Shown in pieces: positions 5,738-45,586 of a DNA stretch of 64,000 nt (position 1 is its first letter; every line of letters begins with the position of its first letter). The stretch comes from Thamnaconus septentrionalis. Its lineage: Eukaryota > Chordata > Actinopteri > Tetraodontiformes > Monacanthidae. The stretch lies in the NCBI GenBank assembly GCA_009823395.1, contig CM020516.1:5295001-5359000 (forward strand). The letters run 5' to 3'. Position numbers and translations under genes: made by a program. Under the pieces are notes generated by a model. The model worked only from the letters and a program-made list of their open reading frames with translations, did not search any database and was not told the DNA's origin.

Positions 5738-5743
5738 TTTATT
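5738..5743 (-). terminator. crls1: Candidate crls1 poly(A) signal (AATAAA on minus strand)
   Basis: The plus strand reads tttatt here, so the minus strand has a canonical AATAAA about 495 nt past the crls1 stop. The implied 3'UTR is about 0.5 kb and contains a (GTCC)n run and a (CA)n run as read on either strand. Cleavage would fall near 5710-5730. Confidence 0.45.

Positions 5744-5921: not shown

Positions 5922-5953
<32 letters not shown>
5922..5953. repeat. (GT)n microsatellite, distal crls1 3'UTR
   Basis: About 15 GT units on the plus strand with one interruption, preceded by shorter GT clusters from 5898. It lies between the crls1 stop and the candidate poly(A) signal, so the transcript would carry (CA)n. 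Confidence 0.85.
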
Positions 5954-5955
<2 letters not shown>

Positions 5956-6109
5956 CGGCAGTCCAGAGGCAGAACCGCAGCTCGACGTGTCTGTAGTGTC
6001 GCAGTGAAACCATCTGCGGCCTCGGCCGTGTCGTCGCCATGGAGACGGACAAGCGGTTGTCACAGCTACTTGGTTCTAGAGCTCCTGGCAATCGTCCCTC
6101 TGCGTGTCA

Positions 6110-6139
6110 GTCCGTCCGTCCGTCCGTCCGTCCGTCCGA
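6110..6139. repeat. (GTCC)n tetranucleotide repeat in crls1 3'UTR
   Basis: About seven perfect gtcc units on the plus strand (GGAC on the transcript), roughly 100 nt after the crls1 stop codon. Confidence 0.85.
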
Positions 6140-6237: not shown

Positions 6238-6337
6238 TCACGGTGATCTGGCGTTCAGCTCTCGGACCGTCTTGCGGCCGTAGTGCCAGTAGCTGTAGCC
6301 CGACGCCGCTGTGGTCGCCGCCGTGACGTAGCTGCAG

Positions 6338-6433
<96 letters not shown>

Positions 6434-8695
6434 GTGAGTTCGGGTGACTGCGCTGCTCGAGTGATCGGCTATTTTATTTGTGTGAAAAGTGCTCCACCCA
6501 GTGGTAAGATCAGGAAAAGACGCTGCTGGGAATTATTTTAGGACGATTATTTTATGCCAGCACCTTTATGTCTGGACTTTCTGAAAATAAGATCAAATTG
6601 AATTAGCCGCTACAAGCATGAAACAATTTGGAAGGAAATGATTTGAAAATAATGTGTTTTCAAAATAATTCACAAAAATATATTATCAATCTCACTAAAT
6701 GTGACAATAAAATACAATGAAAATTGACTCAAACTTAAATTCTAGCAGTTGTCGACCATTACTTTGCAGATTATGGAGGTAAATTATTTATTGTTGTGAA
6801 TCTGTAACGAAGTGCAAGTCACTGTGACAACAAAACAAACACTTGTGTTGATGAAGATAAACATATTCTGAGGGAAACAATTTGTAACACTGCAAAGATC
6901 GATGTGGGGATTGTATTTACCATAAACCCTGCAGCAGAACACTGTCTGTGAAGTGGAAGACGGGGCTGGCCAGGGAGGCTGCAACCAGGAGCAGCTGGAT
7001 GGCTGTGTTCACCTGCAAACAAGAGGACAAATAATCAAAAACAAACATTCCAACAGTGCACAAGTTTGCAGTCTGTCAGAAATGCATTCAGTCAAGTGCA
7101 CGATGGTACTCTTTGCGTTACCTTGCTGAACAGGGTGGGCTTGAGCTGCGCTGTGGTGTAGCAGGGGTTGAAAAACTTACTGAGCGTCACCTGCAGGCCA
7201 AGAAAGGGACAGACTTGCTGATTAACTGATACATACTATTGTTCGTGTCAGTTTAGCATATGACACTATATAAAGACAGATGTAATGCCTTTGTGCAAAA
7301 ATAAAAGTAGTTTTTACTAAAACAAACTGTTTTTAAAGTGCAGTGTGAGGCGTCTCACCGGTGGAGGGACGGTCTTGTATCTCACCCAGAAGACGGCAGC
7401 TATCAGGCCGATGTCTCTGAAGATCACGAGCGCCGTCAGTGGCGCTAAAACAGAACAAATATCAGAATGAAAAACAAAAAACACAACACCCCTGCAACAC
7501 TGTAACAAAGTGCAGCAATTCCAAAGTACAGTACCTGGTATGAGCTCGGCGTAGGTGAGACTGAGGTATAAAATACTGATGAGAATCTTATCAGCCAGTG
7601 GGTCAAGAGCGCTGCCCAGAGCAGACTTCTGCGTGGGCCAAGTCCTGGCAATGTAACCATCCAGCTGTGTCAAGAAAAAGTCAATGTGTCAAAAATCCGC
7701 CCAAAAAGTTTTCTTGGCTCTGGACTGAGATCAGTAGCAACGGGGTCCTCACCAGGTCAGTGGCTCCAGCCAGCATGAACAGAGCCAGACTGAGGTGAAA
7801 GTGCTGCTGGATGATCAGGTGACCCAGGAAAGGAGCCAACACTATCCGACACACACACAGGAAGTTGGGGATTGTCCACGGGTTCTCATGCTGCGGAGCA
7901 ACACACAACAGACACGTGTTTGTGTTCACAAAATCAATGGAGGGATCAAATGAGTGTGATTCAACAGCAGCAGCACCAGCAGCATAATAAGTGTATAATA
8001 AGTGTGATAAAAACAGATTCCACTAACAGCGGTGAAGTCAGTTTAAATATCAGACATGAAATATTATCTATCTATCTAATAACATTCCAACGTAGATTAT
8101 AACCCTTTGGCATATCATTCAAATTAAAAAGCTGATAACATTGAAATAAGTGCTTTAAACCACCGGATATAAGATTTTACAAGTCAGAGGGCTTTAATTG
8201 TTTATCTAAACACAACTATTCCTTCTATCTGTCAAACAGCTGCTTCTCTGTCACCACACTGGGACTGACAGACGTGTGTCACACTTTGGCAGCACCACTC
8301 ACCAGTTCTTTAAACTTGAACAGTCCGTGTCCCGGTACCGAACCGTCCTCCTTCCGCTCCGGCGCCGGGGAGCCGTCCGGTGGAGCCTCCCCGGGCTTCC
8401 CACTGCAAAGTCCCCGGGCTCGGGGAGCCAACAGAGCCCGCAAAGTGGCCGCCGAGCCCTTGTGAACCCGGAGTCCGGCTCCGTGTGGCGGCAGGACGCT
8501 GGTCCAGCAGTCATAGCGGCCGTGAGTGCCCTTGAGGCCGTTAAGCAGGGGGCTGCTGAGGCTGCCGAAGCTCAGCGGCTCAGCGGCAGCAGGTGTGTGT
8601 CTGTGCCGCCGCCATGACGCGCCTTCCGGTCGACACGCGCCCGCCGCCAAGCAGCGCACGCGCGCCACGACAGCGACCCTCCGAAAACACAACAT
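6238..8695 (-). CDS. crls1: Cardiolipin synthase (CMP-forming), 7 coding exons
   Basis: The product joins CDP-diacylglycerol to phosphatidylglycerol to make cardiolipin in the mitochondrial inner membrane. Coding exons, in transcript order: 8303-8695, 7753-7890, 7535-7664, 7359-7444, 7122-7190, 6921-7012, 6238-6331. All introns are GT..AG and the phases agree, giving 333 residues (human 301). The CDP-alcohol phosphotransferase motif is complete and split by intron 2: D176, D179-G180, A183-R184, G194, D198, D202. ENPWTIPN and the ending [10 protein letters not shown] closely match human CRLS1. The N-terminus is Arg/Ala-rich with few acidic residues, as expected of a mitochondrial presequence, and is poorly conserved. 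I chose the ATG at 8695 because it gives a start like the human one (Met-Leu, then basic residues); an in-frame ATG at 8863 is also possible. The gene lies 833 bp downstream of the mcm8 stop, same strand. Identity is near certain; the start is less so. Confidence 0.95.
6342..6431. repeat. (CA)45 microsatellite abutting the crls1 exon 7 splice acceptor
   Basis: An uninterrupted 90-bp CA tract on the plus strand, so (GT/TG)45 in the crls1 pre-mRNA. Only about 10 nt separate it from the CAG acceptor of the last coding exon (exon begins at 6331 on the minus strand). There is no separate pyrimidine tract. Confidence 0.95.

Positions 8696-9007: not shown

Positions 9008-14735
<5,728 letters not shown>

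Positions 14736-45470: not shown

Positions 45471-45586
<116 letters not shown>

Follow-up and report, generated by a model that had tools for sequence, protein, structure and literature searches.

A (TG)45 repeat at the last coding acceptor of fish crls1: probably a tolerated microsatellite at a working acceptor with a distant branch point

The last intron between coding exons of crls1 in Thamnaconus septentrionalis ends in an uninterrupted run of GU repeats, placed where an acceptor would carry its pyrimidine tract. This raises the question of whether the repeat is a length-variable splicing switch, as a preliminary description of this DNA had proposed by analogy with human CFTR, or a microsatellite with which the acceptor simply works. 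The evidence gathered from the window, that is the whole stretch of 64,000 nucleotides that was analysed, points to the second answer: with a probability of about 0.62, an expanded TG microsatellite fills the stretch from the branch point to the acceptor, and its length shifts splicing efficiency modestly, with no dedicated switch.

Specifically, the tract occupies positions 6342..6431 of the minus strand, where the sequence reads (TG)45, or (GU)45 in the transcript, with neither A nor AG inside; the plus strand of the same interval is pure (CA)45. The 45 pure units which had been described at the last crls1 coding acceptor are therefore borne out (6431-6342, minus strand), for a repeat length read from one haplotype of one assembly. 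The tract is followed by CGTGCTGCAG (6332..6341, minus strand), the final 10 nt of intron 6, which includes the acceptor AG at 6333-6332 and gives a junction matching a database protein, P0001. Seven nucleotides, CGTGCTG (6341-6335), separate the tract from the CAG (6334-6332), and exon 7 starts at 6331, which puts the tract 10 nt from the exon edge; the preliminary description had the position of the tract right and its spacing wrong by three, having counted the 10 nt to the CAG. Neither a pyrimidine run nor a T tract was found between (TG)45 and exon 7, in agreement with the earlier claim that the GU tract stands in the pyrimidine-tract position with no separate run of pyrimidines.

The gene lies on the minus strand and has seven coding exons, from a GTG codon at 8668, read provisionally since the true start codon may differ, to the stop codon at 6240-6238. 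In a database protein comparison, the 324-residue product of these exons equals P0001 at 323 of the 324 residues; the sole mismatch is residue 1, V (GTG) in the window vs M, with identity from residue 2 on, and the named fish proteins among the matches of the P0001 search are cardiolipin synthases (CMP-forming). Exon 6 (6921..7012, minus strand) ends in ...CTG CAG GGT TTA TG, intron 6 (6332..6920, minus strand) is 589 nt long with the donor ATG/GTAAAT, and the coding part of exon 7 (6238..6331, minus strand) runs from residue 294, a split codon, to residue 324 and the stop TGA at 6240-6238. Gene, strand and last coding exon had been assigned correctly, and the C-terminal segment ascribed to exon 7 is indeed carried at the end of the product. 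Downstream of the stop codon, an AATAAA read from the sequence at 5738..5743 (minus strand) is a candidate polyadenylation signal.

The contig from which P0001 derives measures 1457 nt, while the same coding exons take up 2431 nt of genome (8668-6238), and it therefore cannot be unspliced genomic DNA. The exon 6-7 junction of P0001 reads L-C-Y-V-T, as given by the acceptor at 6333-6332. Judged by this comparison of sequences, the acceptor is used, just as the preliminary description had drawn it, in at least one sample; P0001 demonstrates acceptor use, and splicing efficiency is a separate matter. Relatives were compared at the level of proteins. The exon 7 segment is present in 120 of the 120 proteins listed (P0001 and 119 others), which are the best 120 of 880 matches in a database clustered at 90% identity, so that truncated or alternative isoforms are invisible to that search. 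Residue 294 is W in 117 of the 119 other listed proteins, C in P0086 and G in P0050, and the rarity of C at the junction argues that P0001 comes from this fish or a near-identical one. Cys294, which results from the C at 6331, thus alters a near-invariant Trp exactly at the unusual splice junction. If the relatives have the intron at the same position, their W implies that exon 7 begins with G there, and the C found here may weaken the acceptor further.

Acceptor strength was compared using an approximate consensus matrix, not MaxEntScan, and only the ranking of its scores is used. The exon 7 acceptor has the lowest score of the six in crls1 (4.03, vs 6.08, 7.08, 8.32, 11.32 and 12.0 for the other five), and pyrimidines fill 9 of its 16 positions from -5 to -20, vs 11-13 at the others. 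Within intron 6, a competing acceptor-like site, CAATTTGATCTTATTTTCAG followed by A (6580..6600, minus strand; AG 6582-6581), scores 7.32, second among the six intron 6 AGs that score above the real acceptor. That count of six is near the chance level of 4.04 +/- 1.67 obtained in 300 shuffles, and decoy acceptors were rejected as a sign of regulated competition. An in-frame downstream AG at 6294-6293 (exon start 6292) was likewise dropped, with a score of -0.67.

A scan of the sequence found no adenosine after A 6435 until the acceptor A at 6333 is reached, so that any adenosine used as the branch point has to be upstream of the repeat. The nearest yUnAy-type candidate is CTCAC (6434..6438, minus strand), whose A at 6435 is 103 nt from the acceptor G, and we infer a branch adenosine immediately before the tract, at about that distance from the AG. 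The last upstream AG is at 6449-6448, which leaves an AG-free zone of 114 nt (6447-6334) before the acceptor A, compared with the AG exclusion zones of at least 100 nt that mark distant-branch-point exons. In the portion of PMC1431707 available, the distance from branch point to acceptor reaches as much as 400 nt for a few known human exons, over spacers devoid of AG, and human exons with AG-free zones of at least 100 nt are alternatively spliced in 68 of 235 cases vs 47 expected. The crls1 exon resembles those described there in its 114-nt zone and in a putative branch point roughly 100 nt upstream; it differs from them in that the zone is mostly microsatellite, and hence expected to be mutable in length, and in that the candidate branch point is read from sequence alone. 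With the branch point upstream of the repeat, each TG unit gained or lost changes the branch-to-acceptor distance by 2 nt and never makes a competing AG. This consequence of tract length for the branch distance was not stated in the preliminary description.

These features are most likely those of a working acceptor with a distant branch point, at which the microsatellite is tolerated. The spliceosome would find the real acceptor as the first AG downstream of the branch adenosine, because the GU repeats contain no AG, and a tract that is half U, perhaps with GU-binding proteins, would suffice for acceptor function. Length variation would then cause a modest shift in efficiency, with retention or use of a cryptic acceptor and a protein that lacks most of the last helix. 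That a microsatellite came to lie here by chance is an adequate explanation for the presence of the tract. The 64-kb window holds 24 TG/CA runs of at least 10 units, and a random acceptor in this window has a chance of about 0.24% of a sense TG run ending at most 12 nt upstream, or about 1.5% over six acceptors, which makes the arrangement unusual for one gene. In a genome of some 200,000 introns, it would be expected hundreds of times.

Acceptor function could also be ascribed to the tract as a positive element, bound by a GU- or U-tolerant factor such as PUF60, CELF (a GU-binding candidate) or U2AF2, for which longer and shorter tracts would be equally good. Half of the tract is U. In addition, as far as the accessible text of PMC6093180 goes, human PUF60 is suggested to promote splicing of introns in which a long U-rich tract pushes the branch point upstream, and zebrafish PUF60 is raised as a possible stand-in for structure in fish GT introns. 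The binding is putative, and this explanation overlaps that of a tolerated microsatellite and is inseparable from it by sequence; taken by itself, we give it a small chance.

What a failure of this acceptor would lead to can be read from the gene model. Retention of intron 6 reads ...TTA TGG TAA, and the protein would end at residue 294; use of the AG at 6582-6581 reads ...TTA TGA, with the stop at the junction, and the protein would end at residue 293. Both truncations would precede most of the last helix, predicted at residues 288-321 by a structure model of low confidence (mean pLDDT 57.6, pTM 0.30; pLDDT 68-78 over residues 261-324), which is used only for that helix; one distant solved relative is listed, 7drj (E 1.1e-08, query residues 142-314). 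Exon 7, with its stop at 6240-6238 and the AATAAA at 5743-5738, appears terminal, a further 3'UTR exon being possible. Because it is the last coding exon, holding the stop and followed by the candidate polyadenylation signal, cassette skipping is improbable, and failure should lead mostly to intron retention or to a cryptic acceptor with an immediate stop. On this ground, the CFTR-like exon skipping that had been put forward as a read-out was judged unlikely and set aside.

The comparison with CFTR stands in part: both genes have a UG repeat where a 3' splice site is weak, and crls1 has no T tract and probably no skippable internal exon. According to the text available of PMC12171016, a U tract of variable length comes after the UG repeat of CFTR, TDP-43 bound to the UG units brings hnRNP A1 to a silencer in the exon, with exon 9 being left out of the transcript, and the missplicing requires TDP-43 on an extended UG repeat beside a short pyrimidine tract. 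Like CFTR intron 8/exon 9, crls1 combines a UG repeat, about four times CFTR's TG11-12 in length, with a weak 3' splice site and a potential TDP-43 site. Unlike the (TG)m(T)n of CFTR, the crls1 tract is followed by CGTGCTGCAG, with no T tract, and unlike exon 9, the crls1 exon is the last coding one, for which retention or cryptic acceptors would take the place of cassette skipping.

These features bear on the proposal of a length-variable switch, in which TDP-43 would coat the GU tract and block the acceptor, repeat length and TDP-43 level setting the share of full-length CRLS1. The tract has room for about seven 12-nt TDP-43 footprints, and the exon 7 acceptor is the lowest-scoring of the six. 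In the parts of the sources available, TDP-43 binds (GU)6 and (GU)12 at picomolar affinity (PMC12697283, preprint), its presence on the extended UG repeat is needed for the CFTR missplicing (PMC12171016), splice sites with TDP-43 bound nearby tend to be repressed (PMC13343711), and the fine-mapped STRs for splicing in human cortex show an enrichment in the 100 bp that precede their exons (PMC13174678, preprint). On biochemical grounds, binding of TDP-43 to (GU)45 is likely, and both the alternative splicing of AG-free-zone exons (PMC1431707) and the repression by TDP-43 (PMC13343711), as excerpted, would favour real regulation over a tolerated microsatellite. Against the switch, the CFTR mechanism includes the exonic silencer bound by hnRNP A1 (PMC12171016), a skipping isoform is unlikely for a last coding exon, and the acceptor is used in at least one sample. 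All considered, we hold the switch to be unlikely; a graded, TDP-43-sensitive loss of the full-length crls1 product is possible, and length-dependent regulation is a reasonable hypothesis with little to favour it a priori.

It is known that fish introns often carry GU repeats at their 3' splice sites, which the preliminary description left out; fish AC-GT introns were reportedly the subject of Lin et al. (2016, Genome Research). As described in the available parts of PMC6093180 and PMC12962679, fish introns commonly have (GT)n ahead of the 3' splice site, and in the AC-GT class a 3'-terminal GT tract forms a duplex with a 5' AC tract, replacing U2AF2; PMC7404189, in its visible part, also covers these introns. 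A bridged intron of this type would account for a GT tract set directly at the 3' splice site of a fish gene with no pyrimidine tract, as both former sources describe, and crls1 shares this with the class, its (TG)45 lying 10 nt from exon 7. Unlike the class, however, crls1 intron 6 lacks an AC repeat close to the 5' splice site, and a scan of the whole intron found no CA/AC run of at least 5 units, which is the feature that defines the class. The duplex predicted for the tract with the opening 150 nt of the intron is unremarkable: its energy of -37.7 kcal/mol compares with a mean of -32.7 (sd 13.1), and 28% of 400 stretches were as low or lower, 58 of 458 draws having been dropped for holding repeats. 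With no CA partner and an ordinary duplex energy, AC-GT bridging within intron 6 was rejected, and we give it next to no credence; by these features, intron 6 is not a member of the fish AC-GT class as defined.

Other long TG/CA runs lie in the window. In the neighbouring minus-strand gene, which we take from its translated exons to be mcm8, a donor CCAAG/GTATGC (13179-13125 region, minus strand) has a CA run of 17 pure units (13158-13125) about 10 nt beyond it. This run corresponds to the AC half of an intron of the fish AC-GT type, and the acceptor read as next (12980-12979) has only a short GU-rich stretch; the two AC-GT halves appear to sit in different introns of the neighbouring genes mcm8 and crls1. 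A (GT)48 run at 9288-9383 (minus strand) lies about 145 nt past the mcm8 stop, in the mcm8 3'UTR or the space before crls1, and no pure TG/CA run in the window is longer than the (AC)56 at 45472-45583.

Human intronic pUG tracts, as contrasted with fish introns in the available text of PMC12962679, have no CA partners. Like pUG tracts, defined by at least 12 repeats near splice sites (PMC12697283, PMC12962679, in the portions available), the crls1 tract has ample length, its 45 repeats leaving room for about three pUG quadruplexes; unlike them, it abuts the acceptor in place of the pyrimidine tract, and its folding is putative.

A predicted partner for the tract lies in the 3'UTR. The (CA)15 at 5923..5952 (minus strand) is the only CA run of at least 5 units in the crls1 stretch 8900-5400, and the duplex predicted between the GU tract and 5955-5900 has an energy of -88.5 kcal/mol, matched by 3 of 400 random 56-nt stretches. 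In a 100-nt scan over 8900-5400, the two best stretches both hold the (CA)15 (-105.1 and -89.4; next -57.3, median -30.2), and a GGAC tetranucleotide repeat of about 8 copies (6106..6138, minus strand), also in the 3'UTR, is a predicted partner of part of the tract. When intron, exon and 3'UTR were folded together, 41 of the 90 tract bases were predicted to pair with the CA stretch. These data would fit a loop over the last exon, in which the tract pairs with the transcribed (CA)15 and hides the acceptor, so that splicing must precede the emergence of the 3'UTR. However, in the same folding model, which leaves out proteins, kinetics and the pUG quadruplex, CTGCAG is unpaired at 0.05 with the CA stretch, 0.01 without it and 0.17 before it is transcribed; being mostly paired in all three cases, it is not freed by leaving out the CA tract, which therefore does not decide acceptor access in silico. 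In addition, with ten sense-CA runs of at least 10 units per 64 kb, a partner no more than 500 nt away in either direction is a coincidence of roughly 15%. We consider the loop very improbable.

In conclusion, the preferred reading is that of a tolerated microsatellite, and the crls1 acceptor belongs to a type already known from fish introns, here with two twists, namely that it has no intronic AC partner and that the length of its repeat fixes the branch distance. Among the matches listed for CRLS1 splicing and for acceptor microsatellites in fish, the titles and opening lines of the abstracts mention no repeat at a crls1 acceptor, and the available portion of PMC5766209 is likewise silent. 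A bolder proposal, which we regard as rather improbable, is that of a fish GU acceptor whose intronic AC partner was lost or never existed, and whose microsatellite would serve at once as pyrimidine tract, AG-free spacer and TDP-43/pUG platform; the mutable length of the repeat would set the branch distance and the TDP-43 load, and thereby, as a heritable trait, how much of the cardiolipin synthase is full-length, and the CA tract of the 3'UTR would be a competing partner. At present, the crls1 acceptor is a clean test case rather than a demonstrated switch; if repeat length alters crls1 splicing, natural alleles of the repeat would tie a mitochondrial lipid enzyme to a microsatellite by way of a defined change in spacing, and would test whether fish GU acceptors lacking an intronic CA partner act like human TDP-43 targets.
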